Positions 49,518-54,541 of a DNA stretch of 64,000 nt are shown here, piece after piece. The notes under the pieces are model-generated. The model searched no databases. It was not told where the DNA came from and saw only the letters and a list, made by a program, of their open reading frames with translations. Source of the DNA: Polynucleobacter finlandensis (GTDB taxonomy: Bacteria > Pseudomonadota > Gammaproteobacteria > Burkholderiales > Burkholderiaceae). The DNA is taken from the NCBI RefSeq assembly GCF_018881755.1, contig NZ_JACVPS010000003.1:124001-188000 (forward strand), read 5' to 3'. A program made the translations under genes and the position numbers. Each line of letters starts with the position of its first letter. The stretch's first letter is position 1.

Positions 49518-50867
49518 TTATTGCGCAACAGCCTCACGAATCATGCCAGCAGCAACGGTGTGGTTGGTGGCTTCATCAATCAAAATGAAAGCACCAGTAC
49601 GCTGAGACTGATCAAATAAATCGGAAACGATTGGCTTTTGCAACACCAAGTCAATGCGACCAATCTCGTTGGCGGTTAAGGGGTGGGTATCGCTAGCATG
49701 GGATAGAGTTTCCACATCCAGTACTTGTTTAATCTCTTTCACTTTTGCGCCAACGGTATTAGTGGTATGACGCAAAGCATATTTACGGCTGAGTGAAAGC
49801 GGTTCACTATCAAGCCAGCAAAGATCTGCAGAAATTTGCTTGCTGAGAGTGGGTGGCGTCGCATCATCAGCACCCACGAAGAGGCAGCCTCTCGACACAT
49901 CAATATCTTCAGCCAAGCGAATGGCAACAGCTTCTCCGGTTTGCGCGGACTCTACTTCGTTATTAGCATTGGCTTGATCGCGGTTTGAGCGATTGCCCAA
50001 ATAGATCTCTGCAACCGTAGCTTCAGTATTTCCAGGAAGTACTCTGATCTTTTGTCCTTTGCGAATGCTGCCAGATTCAATTTGACCAAGGTAGCCACGG
50101 AAGTCATCAGAAGCGCTCCCGTCTTGACGGGCGACATACTGAACAGGGAAACGCAATTCTGTTTTTTCAGACTGAGGACTGGTATCTAAACCTTCTAACC
50201 ATTCCAAGAGGGTGGGGCCTTTATACCAAGGCATATCTTTGCTGGCAGTAACCACGTTCGCACCCAGTAAAGCAGAAATTGGCATCAAGATTGGTTTTGG
50301 TAAACCAATCTTTTGGGATAAATCTTCAATAGCAACTGAGATGGCATTAAAAATCTTCTCATCAAAGTTCAATAGATCCATCTTATTAACCGCAAAGACC
50401 ACATGACGCAGGCCGAGTAAATGAACAATGGCAGCATGACGTTTGGTTTGCGCTAAAAGAGTAGCTGGTGAGGTAGTTAAATCCACGCGACTCGCATCAA
50501 CCAGAATCACAGCTACATCCGATTGGGATGCACCAGTAACAAGGTTACGCGTGTACTGCACATGCCCAGGGGCATCAGCCACGATGAACTTACGTTTTGG
50601 TGTAGAGAAGTAGCGGTAGGCGACATCAATGGTGATGCCTTGCTCACGCTCAGCCTCAAGGCCATCGGTTAAGAGCGCTAAATCTACGCCAGCATCTGAA
50701 GAAGTGACGCGGGCATGCTTGGTTTTGGAGAGTGACTCCAACTGATCAACCAAAATAGATTTAGTGTCATAGAGTAAGCGACCTATGAGGGTGCTTTTGC
50801 CATCATCAACGCTACCAGCGGTGATAAAGCGTACGACGTTTTGATGTGGATGTGTTGTTTGAGTCAT
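49518..50867 (-). CDS. cysN: Sulfate adenylyltransferase subunit CysN
   Basis: The GTP-hydrolysing subunit of ATP sulfurylase, which with CysD makes APS from sulfate. The EF-Tu-like G-domain shows GSVDDGKSTLIGRLLYD, DAPGHVQYTRN and NKMDLL, then two beta-barrel domains. At 449 residues it has no fused CysC kinase, consistent with a pathway that reduces APS directly. Its ATG shares a base with the cysD stop. It is the last gene of the transcript. Confidence 0.95.
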   Translation of the reverse strand: MTQTTHPHQNVVRFITAGSVDDGKSTLIGRLLYDTKSILVDQLESLSKTKHARVTSSDAGVDLALLTDGLEAEREQGITIDVAYRYFSTPKRKFIVADAPGHVQYTRNLVTGASQSDVAVILVDASRVDLTTSPATLLAQTKRHAAIVHLLGLRHVVFAVNKMDLLNFDEKIFNAISVAIEDLSQKIGLPKPILMPISALLGANVVTASKDMPWYKGPTLLEWLEGLDTSPQSEKTELRFPVQYVARQDGSASDDFRGYLGQIESGSIRKGQKIRVLPGNTEATVAEIYLGNRSNRDQANANNEVESAQTGEAVAIRLAEDIDVSRGCLFVGADDATPPTLSKQISADLCWLDSEPLSLSRKYALRHTTNTVGAKVKEIKQVLDVETLSHASDTHPLTANEIGRIDLVLQKPIVSDLFDQSQRTGAFILIDEATNHTVAAGMIREAVAQ

Positions 50868-51802
50868 CAGAAGTAACCTTCTTTCTTACGGCGCTCCATC
50901 GAGGCCTCATTGGTTTGATCGTCCATGCGAGTAGCGCCACGCTCAGTAATCTCGGTAATGGCGGTTTCGGCAATGATGTCGATAGGATTCGCTGCAGTGC
51001 TCAGTACTGGGCAGGTGCAGCTGATATCGCCAACAGTGCGGAAGCGTACGTCCAATATTTCACTAACGTCGTCAGGAGCTTTTGGTGTGACATCGGTTAC
51101 TGGGAGTAACAGACTATTTTTTCTAACCACTTCACGTTTGTGGGTGTAGTAAATACTTGGAAGTTCTAATTTCTCACGAGCAATGTATTGCCAGATATCA
51201 AGCTCAGTCCAGTTCGAGATCGGGAACACGCGCATATTCTCACCCTTAGCAATGCGAGCGTTATAGAGGTTCCAGAGTTCTGGGCGCTGAGCTTTCGGAT
51301 CCCATTGGCCAAAATCATCGCGGAAGGAGAAAATGCGCTCCTTAGCACGGGCTTTTTCTTCGTCGCGACGGGCGCCACCCATGAGGGCGTCGAATTCATA
51401 TTCGGCAATCGCTTCAAGCAAGGTAACAGCTTGAGCAGCATTGCGTGAGTCGGTTTCTTTGCGTAGGCGCACTGTGCCCTTTGCAATGGAGTCTTCCACG
51501 TGACCAACAATCAGCTTTACACCAGTCTTTTCAACCACAGAATCACGATAGGCAATGACTTCTGGATAGTTATGGCCAGTATCAATGTGCAGAATTGGGA
51601 ATGGTAGTTTTACAGGGCGATTGCCAAACTGAAAAGCCTTACGAGCTAAATGAAACATGACGATTGAGTCTTTGCCACCAGAGAACAGCATAGCTGGATT
51701 GGAGCACTGCGCTACTACTTCGCGAATGATATAAATGGATTCAGCTTCAAGCCAATCCAAATGATCATCTAATAATTGGTTTTCTTGCATTCTGTACTTC
51801 AT
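50867..51802 (-). CDS. cysD: Sulfate adenylyltransferase subunit CysD
   Basis: The catalytic subunit of ATP sulfurylase (311 residues), a PP-loop enzyme: LFSGGKDSIVMFHLARKAF binds ATP, and LPFPILHIDTGHNYPEVIAYRD, GGARRDEEKARAKERIFSFRD and the C-terminal FRTVGDISCTCPV are family hallmarks. The ATG at 51802 is used; a second ATG lies four codons later. It lies 16 bases after cysH. Confidence 0.96.
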   Translation of the reverse strand: MKYRMQENQLLDDHLDWLEAESIYIIREVVAQCSNPAMLFSGGKDSIVMFHLARKAFQFGNRPVKLPFPILHIDTGHNYPEVIAYRDSVVEKTGVKLIVGHVEDSIAKGTVRLRKETDSRNAAQAVTLLEAIAEYEFDALMGGARRDEEKARAKERIFSFRDDFGQWDPKAQRPELWNLYNARIAKGENMRVFPISNWTELDIWQYIAREKLELPSIYYTHKREVVRKNSLLLPVTDVTPKAPDDVSEILDVRFRTVGDISCTCPVLSTAANPIDIIAETAITEITERGATRMDDQTNEASMERRKKEGYF

Positions 51803-51818: not shown

Positions 51819-52547
51819 TTATTTGTTAACGTGTAGACCACATTCTTTACTATCGCTTTGTAACCACCACCAGCGACCGGCTCGAATGTCTTCACCTTTT
51901 TTGACTTGGCGCGTGCAGGGCTCGCAGCCAATGCTGGGGTAGCCCTTTAAATGTAGCGGGTGAATCGGTACATTTTCTTGTTTGATATAAGCCCAGATAT
52001 CTTCTTCAGTCCAATCAAATAAAGGATTGAACTTAGTAATACCTCTTGCATCATCATGCTCTTCAAAATTGAGCTCAACGCGAGTAGTGGATTGTTCACG
52101 TCTTTGACCGGTCAGCCAGGCATCTGCACCAATCAGTGCAGCGTTTAATGGCTTGATCTTACGGGCGCCGCAGCACGCTTTCTTAGCCTCTTCACCATCA
52201 TAAAAGCCATTCATGCCATATTGATCAATAAAGGCTTGAACATCAGACTCTTCAGGGTAAGCCCTGGCAATAGAAATGCCATAGCAATCTTCAGTAGTCT
52301 TGGTCATGTCGACCGTCTCTTGATGCAAGCGACCAGTTTCTAGTGTGAATAAAGCAATCTTTGCCTTGGACTGTGCAATCGCATCAGTCATCACCATATC
52401 TTCAGCAGCCAAGCTAGTAGCAAAACGCACGTCTGAGAACTTCTCAGTAATGCTCAGTAATCTATGCCTTAGGGTAGAAGTCTTTTCTGCAAGTTCAGCG
52501 GTTGTTAGGGTGCTATCTGGTATTGACCAAAATTCAGGAGTCATCAT
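51819..52547 (-). CDS. cysH: Assimilatory APS reductase (4Fe-4S type CysH)
   Basis: It reduces adenylylsulfate to sulfite with thioredoxin. The 242-residue protein has the cluster-binding pairs Cys125-Cys126 (KKACCGARKIKPLN) and Cys208/Cys211 (IGCEPCTR), the mark of APS rather than PAPS reductases, and the catalytic Cys236 in SKECGLH. A PAPS enzyme would lack the CC/CxxC pairs. No APS kinase gene is nearby, which agrees. The start ATG overlaps the end of tauE by four bases. Confidence 0.94.
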   Translation of the reverse strand: MMTPEFWSIPDSTLTTAELAEKTSTLRHRLLSITEKFSDVRFATSLAAEDMVMTDAIAQSKAKIALFTLETGRLHQETVDMTKTTEDCYGISIARAYPEESDVQAFIDQYGMNGFYDGEEAKKACCGARKIKPLNAALIGADAWLTGQRREQSTTRVELNFEEHDDARGITKFNPLFDWTEEDIWAYIKQENVPIHPLHLKGYPSIGCEPCTRQVKKGEDIRAGRWWWLQSDSKECGLHVNK

Positions 52548-53338
52548 GAGGAAACGAGTTTAATTCCAACTAAAAATAAAGTTGCCGCAAGTGTGGTTCT
52601 CGTAGCTCGTTCGGATAGCGTGCTGGACAACTTAGCCCCGAGCCAGATAGCTGGAACAGATCCAAGTAAAAGGCCAAACAGTAAATCAAAATGGACGTTA
52701 CCAAGCCACCAGTGACCCAAGCCAGCTAAGGCAGTTAGAGGAACTGCGTAGGCGATATCTGTGCCTGCTACTTGTGCGGGTTTTAGATAAGGGTAGAGGA
52801 CTAATATCAATGTTGCACCAATGGCGCCTGCACCAATGGATGAAACGGTTACCAACACTCCGATGACAGCACCAACTGAAATGGTCGCTATTTTTAAATT
52901 GGATCCGCTTGGTAAAAAATCAGGATTATCTTGCACCCACTTTAAAATCTTAGCTCTGAATAAAAGTGATCCAGCTGTGAGAAGAACTGAAATGCCGATT
53001 GATATGCTAATCAGGTGATTAAAGTTTTTTGAAACTGGTCCTACATATTTAAGTGCGAGGATCGATAGAATCGCTGTAGTCAGACTTCCAATGCAAAGCA
53101 GTCTCACGATGTCCCATCGAACATTCCCATGCAACCTATGTGCAGCAGTGCCAAATCCTTTGGTGATTGCTGCAAATGCTAAGTCGGTCCCAACTGCAGT
53201 CGTGGGAGCAACCCCAAAAATGATTGTCAACAAAGGCGTCATTAAGGAGCCGCCACCAACACCGGTCATTCCCACTAGGAGACCAACTAGTGCGCCAGAA
53301 ATAATGAATTGAGTAGAGTCTAGAAAAAATTGGATCAT
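52544..53338 (-). CDS. TauE/SafE-family sulfite/organosulfonate transporter
   Basis: This 264-residue membrane protein has eight or so helices and the family motifs LVGMTGVGGGSLMTPLLTIIFG near the N-terminus and IGAGAIGATLILVLYPYLKPAQVAGTD in the second half. TauE/SafE proteins export or import sulfite, sulfate-like or sulfoacetate ions. Sitting directly ahead of cysH-cysD-cysN with a four-base overlap, it probably imports sulfate or protects against sulfite made by CysH. The direction is not known. Confidence 0.87.
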   Translation of the reverse strand: MIQFFLDSTQFIISGALVGLLVGMTGVGGGSLMTPLLTIIFGVAPTTAVGTDLAFAAITKGFGTAAHRLHGNVRWDIVRLLCIGSLTTAILSILALKYVGPVSKNFNHLISISIGISVLLTAGSLLFRAKILKWVQDNPDFLPSGSNLKIATISVGAVIGVLVTVSSIGAGAIGATLILVLYPYLKPAQVAGTDIAYAVPLTALAGLGHWWLGNVHFDLLFGLLLGSVPAIWLGAKLSSTLSERATRTTLAATLFLVGIKLVSS

Positions 53339-53356: not shown

Positions 53357-53521
53357 TTATGCGAATGACTGTTCAAACTCTTCGAGTTTGATGGCATTCA
53401 TGAGAAATAGGATTTGACGCTGAAATCTTTTGCGCTCGTCAACCTTATCGTGTGGCAGACGATCGTGCTCACGTAATAAGTTGGTTATAACGGGGTTGTA
53501 ATGCTCTCTGACTGGGGACAC
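53357..53521 (-). CDS. Small 54-residue protein ahead of tauE-cysHDN
   Basis: The ORF starts at a GTG with an AAGGA ribosome-binding site six bases upstream and ends 18 bases before tauE. The product begins SPVREHYNPVITNLL, is charged and rich in Arg/Glu/Lys with no hydrophobic helix, and ends KLEEFEQSFA. The central RLPHDKVDERKRFQRQ looks helical. I know no family for it. The spacing, good ribosome-binding site and absence of in-frame stops favour a real gene, possibly the first gene of the sulfate operon. Confidence 0.6.
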   Translation of the reverse strand: MSPVREHYNPVITNLLREHDRLPHDKVDERKRFQRQILFLMNAIKLEEFEQSFA

Positions 53522-53528
53522 TTCAATT

Positions 53529-53565
53529 CCTTGGTAAATATCTCGTTAGAGACAATGTACCAAGG
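53529..53565 (-). promoter_or_regulatory. Leader hairpin covering the small-ORF ribosome-binding site
   Basis: On the minus strand CCTTGGTA (53565-53558) pairs with TACCAAGG (53536-53529). Between them lies a nested TCTC-TAAC-GAGA hairpin. The second outer arm includes the AAGG of the ribosome-binding site of the ORF at 53521, so folding would block its translation. This is a candidate RNA switch or thermosensor; a ligand is unknown. Confidence 0.5.
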
Positions 53566-53568
53566 GGT

Positions 53569-53593
53569 CTATATATCTACAAGGAATATATAG
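53569..53593. repeat. AT-rich inverted repeat in the cys operon promoter region
   Basis: CTATATAT and ATATATAG flank nine bases between fpr and the sulfate operon, upstream of the leader hairpin. It may be an operator, or simply overlap a promoter -10 region. Confidence 0.4.
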
Positions 53594-53630
53594 CGATATC
53601 TAAATTACTTTTAGGTATATAGACTATCTA

Positions 53631-54407
53631 TTACTTCTCTACGAAAGCACGTTCGTAGACGTAGTCACCTAGTTGACCAAGGCTTGGAGAGACCTTAAAG
53701 CCTTTGGCATCTAGCATCTCAGAAGTTTCTTTAAGCATTGATGGGCTGCCGCAAATCATCGCACGATCTACTGCTGGATCTAAAGGCGGCAGACCGATAT
53801 CTTGAAAGAGTTGACCAGACTCAATCGCAGTAGTTAGGCGACCCGTGTGTGTGAAAGCTTCACGAGTCACGGTTGGGTAGTAGATTAATTTCTCACGAAT
53901 GATTTCACCTAAGAACTCATCTTGCGTAAGTTCATTTTTAAGGTAGTCAGCATAAGCAAGCTCGCTTACCAAACGGACACCATGAATGAGTACGACTTTT
54001 TCAAACTTGTCGTAAGTTTCTGGATCACGAATGATGCTCATGAATGGCGCAAGGCCTGTGCCGGTGCTAAACAGGTAAAGATGTTTGCCTGGGTTCAAGT
54101 CATCGATTACCAATGTGCCAACAGACTTCTCGCTCACCAAGATGGGATCGCCAACTTGGATTTTTTGTAAGCGTGAGGTGAGTGGACCATTTTGAACTTT
54201 AATGCTCAAGAACTCGAGATGCTCTTCATAGTTGGGGCTCGCAACGCTATAAGCTCTGACGAGAGGCTTACCTTCAACCTCTAAGCCAATCATCAAGAAA
54301 TGGCCGCTACGAAAGCGTAAGCCTTTATTTCTGGTGGTGGTGAAGCTAAATAGGGTGTCGTTCCAGTGGTGAACGGTGAGAACGGTTTCAGTCTGATATG
54401 CGGCCAT
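53631..54407 (-). CDS. fpr: Ferredoxin/flavodoxin-NADP+ reductase
   Basis: This FAD enzyme of 258 residues moves electrons between NADPH and ferredoxin or flavodoxin. It has the FAD-binding RAYSVASPNYEEHLEF, the NADP motif STGTGLAPFMSIIRD, and the C-terminal GQLGDYVYERAFVEK of the subclass I bacterial FNR type. The ATG at 54407 is preferred; an upstream TTG adds nine residues without signal. With fdx and the sulfate genes it may supply reductant for sulfite reduction or Fe-S work, but that is inference. Confidence 0.93.
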   Translation of the reverse strand: MAAYQTETVLTVHHWNDTLFSFTTTRNKGLRFRSGHFLMIGLEVEGKPLVRAYSVASPNYEEHLEFLSIKVQNGPLTSRLQKIQVGDPILVSEKSVGTLVIDDLNPGKHLYLFSTGTGLAPFMSIIRDPETYDKFEKVVLIHGVRLVSELAYADYLKNELTQDEFLGEIIREKLIYYPTVTREAFTHTGRLTTAIESGQLFQDIGLPPLDPAVDRAMICGSPSMLKETSEMLDAKGFKVSPSLGQLGDYVYERAFVEK

Positions 54408-54541
54408 AAATACGGATTCGTTTGAGGATTGCAAAACGATGATTATCCCATTCTTGAGGGGGGAATTTGATGGGAATCACGCAAAAAGTAGGACTCACTC
54501 GTGATATAGATCAGACTTTTGGTAATAAGGAGGTGATTTAG

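Follow-up and report, generated by a model that had tools for sequence, protein, structure and literature searches.

The short reading frame ORF54, which lies on the minus strand of the window (the whole 64,000-nt stretch of Polynucleobacter finlandensis DNA analysed here), is a genuine, strongly conserved small-protein gene. With somewhat better than even confidence, we regard its product as a small sulfur-associated protein that is translated from a start site closed by default, the gate being primarily that of ORF54 itself. What had the appearance of a leader ORF proves to be a conserved small protein whose gene context is well defined and which about half of the searched genomes of freshwater Polynucleobacter encode; its start would constitute a simple translational gate. 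A preliminary description of the region, made from the window, had seen in the same frame a possible sensory leader of a sulfate operon; its observation was confirmed, while its interpretation is partly supported.

ORF54 is a conserved small-protein gene

The frame, described earlier as a GTG-started ORF of 54 residues ahead of tauE-cysH-cysD-cysN, was recovered at that place (Table 1); the start codon is GTG in the window and ATG in most relatives. Conservation of the frame, proposed as a check on its reality, is pronounced: 77 of 79 leader-bearing copies are open across 52 codons, the mean pairwise differences at codon positions 1, 2 and 3 are 10.2, 5.3 and 27.5 (79 copies), and the median dN/dS is about 0.08 (70 usable of 300 sampled pairs). 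An AlphaFold2 model of the protein consists of two long helices (residues 3-21 and 27-52) with a mean pLDDT of 95.7. Sequence searches of Pfam, NCBIfam and PDB assigned ORF54 to no family; seven Pfam families appeared at E 0.04-0.22, each matching just one or two of 32 ORF54 members, and none was accepted. Helical hairpins are a common fold, and Foldseek returned 56 matches to the model at E <=10 and none at E <=0.001. No description of ORF54 or its leader element was found in open-licence PMC papers.

Table 1. Features of the ORF54 region (window coordinates)
Feature	Position	Strand	Remarks
fnr, FAD/NAD-binding, ferredoxin-NADP-reductase-like	53631..54434	(-)	longest ORF, start uncertain
Element A, dyad ATACCTAAAAGTAATTTAGATAT, T-N11-A core	53596..53618	(-)	conserved in canonical loci
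Element B, AT-rich palindrome CTATATATTCCTTGTAGATATATAG	53569..53593	(-)	conserved; single place in genome
5' arm of start-site stem, CCTTGGTA, anti-SD	53558..53565	(-)	by eye and fold
Nested hairpin GTCTC-TAAC-GAGAT	53540..53553	(-)	poorly conserved as helix
3' arm of start-site stem, TACCAAGG, overlaps SD	53529..53536	(-)	by eye and fold
Shine-Dalgarno (SD) AAGGA, occluded	53528..53532	(-)	opening energy 8.3 kcal/mol
ORF54	53357..53521	(-)	54 aa small protein, GTG start
tauE, sulfite exporter TauE/SafE family	52544..53338	(-)	3' of ORF54 in some lineages
cysH	51819..52547	(-)	PAPS_reduct family
cysD	50867..51802	(-)	PAPS_reduct family; name presumed from gene order
cysN	49518..50867	(-)	name presumed from sequence and gene order

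ORF54 is carried by 33 of the 61 Polynucleobacter genomes (G000-G060) and by none of the 40 others in a search of 101 genomes. A family-level search of 299 genomes recovered 32 genomes of the genus; its single match elsewhere, a weak one (E 3e-4) within a frame of 308 aa from a different genus, was taken as chance. An order-level search was positive in seven of 399 genomes, all of them Polynucleobacter. The 59 loci of named relatives come from Polynucleobacter strains or from bins labelled only by a higher taxon, and relatives at 52-57% identity occur in three Comamonadaceae/Burkholderiales bins (L099, L100, L102). One genome (G002) has two copies with leaders, one 5' of tauE-cysHDN and the other stand-alone behind fnr (L031, L032). 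Two further copies are broken with the leader kept: in L101 (1435 onward) the frame stops early beside a cysN-like gene, and that of L118 is interrupted by an internal stop.

In the window, ORF54 is followed by a tightly packed series of sulfur genes, with gaps of 18 nt between ORF54 and tauE and 16 nt between cysH and cysD, and overlaps of 4 nt between tauE and cysH and 1 nt between cysD and cysN. Directly upstream on the same strand lies fnr, a gene on which the preliminary description was silent. This arrangement, fnr upstream and tauE downstream, was found in 22 of 58 named loci, a count that excludes L101. In 25, fnr is upstream and the 700 nt that follow ORF54 contain no probed sulfur gene on the same strand; several such stand-alone copies have a terminator-like hairpin directly 3' when inspected by eye (e.g. 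L057, L066, L090). The remaining loci have tauE upstream and sbp downstream (four), tauE upstream only (three), cysA upstream (one), neither (two) or a flank that is too short (one). The fullest order is that of L084, in which fnr, tauE, ORF54, sbp, cysT, another permease-like gene, cysA and a gene for a CysB-family regulator follow each other. In L035 sbp comes after ORF54, in L099 ORF54 stands behind a cluster running from sbp to cysA, in L100 sbp is nearby on the opposite strand, and in L102 ORF54 has a taurine-dioxygenase-like gene on one side and an O-acetylhomoserine sulfhydrylase gene on the other. As read from gene content, sulfur uptake and assimilation is the common thread of the ORF54 neighbourhoods in both groups. 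As judged only from its neighbour genes, ORF54 probably has a role in sulfur uptake or in the response to sulfur limitation.

The association does not extend to a fixed partnership with sulfate reduction. When cysH was searched for in the same 101 genomes (E 1e-40), the 61 genomes of the genus fell into 19 with both genes, 14 with ORF54 and no cysH, eight with cysH and no ORF54, and 20 with neither. Thirteen of the 14 carriers lacking cysH are at least 99% complete (the other, G050, is 80% complete), and the leader was detected by a covariance model in all 14. Leader, hairpin and ORF54 are therefore kept without cysH in 14 of 33 carriers, and the element is unlikely to be primarily a sulfate-reduction leader. 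The distribution of cysH is itself patchy (27 of the 61 genomes), and CysH is 57-70% identical to that of the window in the eight carriers without ORF54, as opposed to 72-100% in those with ORF54.

The start-site stem and the Shine-Dalgarno sequence

The two arms of the inverted repeat form eight pairs on the minus strand, and AAGGA sits four bases into the 3' arm, at a distance of six bases from the GTG; a nested pairing joins GTCTC (53553-53549) with GAGAT (53544-53540). The positions were read by eye and the pairing was taken from the fold, and both repeat and hairpin are present as described earlier. A 76-nt segment around the repeat folds at -18.8 kcal/mol compared to -10.95 +/- 2.59 for dinucleotide shuffles (z -3.0), with one of 200 shuffles folding equally well, and leader and ORF54 together (284 nt) reach a folding z of -5.1. 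The accompanying claim that folding sequesters the ribosome-binding site is borne out by calculation: opening the SD costs 8.3 kcal/mol, whereas the median is 3.0 among 304 control starts taken from the other genes of the window and related loci, a number that overstates their independence because homologues from related genomes are included. Among these controls 2.0% reach 7.3 kcal/mol and 15% require at least 5 kcal/mol; within the window, one of 26 control starts is costlier than ORF54 (9.3 kcal/mol). The stem was also considered as a terminator, which was rejected as no T-run follows it.

Among relatives, 120 ORF54 matches were reduced to 93 distinct leader/protein records, from which twelve with non-canonical leaders (L022, L026, L029, L030, L035, L076, L082, L083, L096, L099, L100, L102) were excluded; the resulting alignment A3 holds 81 leaders, 79 of them distinct over 61 nt. 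A recognisable SD is present in all but L074. With 58 nt of upstream sequence, SD opening requires at least 5 kcal/mol in 65 of these 80 canonical leaders and less than 3 in eight; the corresponding numbers are 56 and nine with 45 nt, and 67 and four with 105 nt. The longest fold hides the SD in L016, L017 and L114, while shorter leaders do not. Alternative stems cover the SD in some loci, namely CCTCT/AGAGG in L034 and L124, two of the 80, and CCTAAA/TTTAGG in the divergent L022, L082 and L083. Strong occlusion is absent in L030, L076 and L096, L100 is near the control level, and L026 has no clear SD. In a shuffle test on 24 chosen leaders of the 93 (all divergent and ten canonical; no result for L026), the observed occlusion was reached by one to four of 60 shuffles each for L022, L029, L082, L035 and L083, by five for L124 and by 12 for L034, and it was not beyond shuffles in the canonical L016, L017 and L019.

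Two leaders deserve separate mention. In L074:5943-6003 (Polynucleobacter necessarius isolate PPGSP2) the stem is kept and the SD is altered, with CCAAGAAAG in place of CCAAGGAAT, so that no recognisable SD of at least four bases is present. In L122:1443-1503 an alternative stem, CTTGATA/TATCAAG, recognised by eye, could replace the SD stem and free the SD.

In canonical loci, the stretch from fnr to the start codon is conserved at most of its bases and comprises element A, element B and then the start-site stem, the commonest form of which is CCTTGGTAAAT...ATTTACCAAGG with the start codon close behind. A covariance model built on the final 61 nt of the leader, searched with strict filters that may lose weak matches, identified 29 places in 28 of the 101 genomes, all at ORF54 starts; the five carriers without a match (G020, G023, G032, G051, G052) have divergent leaders. 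In the genome from which the window is taken, the leader was found once, alongside a 15-base chance match.

Across the 79 leaders, 89.4% of the cells of the outer stem are paired and 62.9% of those of the nested hairpin, and double changes occur at four of the 11 outer-stem pairs. Both helices together pair in 81.2% of cells, compared to at most 48.3% when slid by one to three columns. The covariation score of the helices exceeds that of all 500 column shuffles; when doubly changed pairs are counted instead, the helices do not surpass such shuffles, 132 of 500 reaching the observed value. On a tree built from flanking coding sequence, with a null preserving the changes per column (null model and parsimony counts were simple custom scripts), the outer stem acquired five double substitutions compared to 1.1 expected, a number reached in one of 500 simulations. 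The paired fraction, 89.2% compared to 85.1% under the null, is marginal (30 of 500), and pair-breaking branch events (46) are set against 22 single changes that keep the pair. Thirty-seven one-sided transversions disrupt pairing, for the most part at columns 18-56, 26-48 and 28-46. One-sided transitions, in turn, kept a G-U pair in 19 cases and broke pairing in five (one-sided binomial 0.003), and outside the SD-facing pairs in 13 and four cases (0.02). The check on covariation proposed in the preliminary description is thus moderately favourable overall: the double substitutions and the G-U bias speak for the stem, while RNAalifold predicted no common structure for the 79 leaders.

In an alternative reading, the inverted repeat would be a DNA operator bound by a dimeric regulator, with the overlap of the SD being incidental. 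The empty RNAalifold prediction would fit this, as would the conservation of sequence in both arms and the two palindromes further upstream, which look like DNA sites. However, a DNA operator gives no reason to favour G-U, and the predominance of G-U-keeping transitions, which persists off the SD-facing pairs, therefore favours RNA. In several leaders, among them L049, L105 and L107, the loop also differs in length by one base, and the SD is hidden by unrelated arms in L034/L124 and in L022/L082/L083, the support from shuffles being weak for L034 and L124. We accordingly regard an operator as unlikely, and hold with fair, not overwhelming, confidence that the start-site stem acts as RNA, as judged from its pattern of substitutions.

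Upstream elements and the reach of the proposed gate

The interval between fnr and ORF54 contains two further conserved palindromic elements that are absent from the preliminary description. Element A has a T-N11-A core and is what we take to be a LysR-type site; the 3' half of element B appears to resemble a -10 region that is suitably spaced from the 5' arm. No consensus promoter was found at the ORF54 leader and no terminator-like site in the fnr-ORF54 interval. When other loci were scanned for elements A and B with weight matrices, hits were weak at best among the matches listed, which cover ranks 51-119 and from which the promoters of ORF54 itself had not yet dropped out. At L054:4994, L047:4997 and L084:4196, upstream of fnr, element A has weak, low-scoring matches (TTACTAAAAGTC...TATATCACTAC), again among the matches listed; thus, fnr and ORF54 may have a regulator in common.

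Taken together with the stem, these elements suggest how ORF54 might be expressed. The gene has its own conserved promoter-like region, in which an activator of the LysR/CysB type would act through element A and transcription would start near the 5' arm from the -10-like element B. In the mRNA leader, the SD would then be taken up by a stem that comprises 8 to 11 pairs, and with the SD so paired the start would be closed by default in the cell and synthesis of ORF54 be low or dependent on conditions. In longer transcripts that read through from fnr, a second anti-SD could come from the element B loop, which is complementary to the SD region (AUUCCUUG with CAAGGAAU, matched by eye). As to what might open the gate, a fixed throttle or autogenous control would rank first, followed by a small RNA or an RNA-binding protein, and then by temperature or a metabolite. 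The gate would act first on ORF54 itself, and any effect on tauE-cysHDN through coupling would be at most secondary and specific to certain lineages.

The model of the preliminary description is that the leader could sense temperature, a metabolite or ribosome flow and mainly control tauE-cysHDN by translational coupling. Such a relay would be in line with the occluded SD, with the tight packing of the genes and with the position of tauE close behind ORF54 in the window and in the 22 named loci. As a main role it does not agree with a protein under selection at the protein level, with tauE being the next gene in just 22 of 58 loci, or with the 14 of 33 carriers, nearly all of high completeness, in which cysH is absent. 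The SD of tauE is moreover accessible by itself (opening energy 2.2 kcal/mol), and coupling is therefore possible and not required. With regard to temperature, the calculated energy for opening the ORF54 SD falls smoothly, from 11.7 kcal/mol at 4 C over 10.1 at 20 C and 8.3 at 37 C to 7.7 at 42 C; these calculated values give a slope in place of the melting within the temperature range of the organism that characterises an RNA thermometer, and temperature is an unlikely opener in this model. The leader has one hairpin in which no metabolite aptamer is visible, and Rfam gave no match at the gathering score and nothing credible up to E 10, which speaks against metabolite sensing. We thus consider a sensory leader directed at tauE-cysHDN quite unlikely. 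A cysteine attenuator was also considered and rejected: the window ORF has no Cys among its 54 residues, and the protein is under purifying selection.

A transcript beginning at the base of the hairpin might be produced from the -10-like half of element B, which would fit a hairpin that stabilises the mRNA 5' end, with pairing of the SD as a by-product. We consider this very unlikely, as such a function does not call for the SD to be part of the structure, yet the SD lies in the 3' arm of all canonical A3 leaders except L074.

Comparison with known systems

In RNA thermometers and other leaders that sequester the SD, the SD is paired in a stem just 5' of the start codon. Similarly, the SD of ORF54 is held in a local stem beyond chance that is kept by moderate compensatory change; in contrast to RNA thermometers, its opening energy shifts smoothly between 4 and 42 C. 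By its predicted fold, the ORF54 leader may thus be placed with the SD-sequestering kind of translational control, and no named RNA family was found for it. Polynucleobacter-1 RNA (RF01718) is described in part of PMC2864571 as a candidate cis-regulatory RNA of the same bacterial group; its covariance model had no match in the window or its genome, the control genomes of the genome search being likewise without a match. Intergenic regions of Polynucleobacter have been screened before, and the passages of PMC8632094 on Polynucleobacter RNAs report icd-II, carA, HRC-28-1 and PBC-28-3 and make no mention of the ORF54 leader element. Of these, PBC-28-3, which was found from Beta proteobacterium CB at the start sites of ahpC-like genes, is similar according to these passages in that a covarying stem lies by the start codon and has a proposed translational role, perhaps with protein binding (PMC8632094). 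It differs in its downstream gene, its long stem and its conserved pyrimidine loop, a distinction drawn from the published description only (PMC8632094).

At the protein level, the closest parallel is OscA, a small protein of sulphur starvation in Pseudomonas corrugata 28, as described in parts of PMC2996968 and PMC3596284. The phenotype reported for OscA is one of chromate sensitivity. Like ORF54, OscA is small, of unknown function and located beside sulfate transporter genes (the oscA-sbp unit), and ORF54 precedes sbp in L082-L084, L091 and L035. Adjacency to sbp or sulfate transporter genes as in OscA is limited to these loci and L099 and L100, and does not include the window. ORF54 differs in that no sequence relation was found and it lacks a Pfam match, in that it also occurs in genomes without cysH, and in its occluded start. 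PF10055 (DUF2292), which we take to be the OscA family, had no match in the genome of the window. ORF54 is accordingly OscA-like in position only, as gene order indicates, and represents an OscA-like candidate where PF10055 was not found, that is, in the genome of the window. For the calling of leader peptides the lesson is a general one, as a single genome was insufficient to recognise the nature of an ORF that leads an operon. It might even be speculated, as an improbable extension, that ORF54 founds an undescribed family of small sulfur-response proteins which takes the place of OscA in Polynucleobacter as well as in some Comamonadaceae and which binds the hairpin at its own start site, forming a self-regulating unit placed ahead of cysHDN, sbp-cysTWA-cysB or metY.
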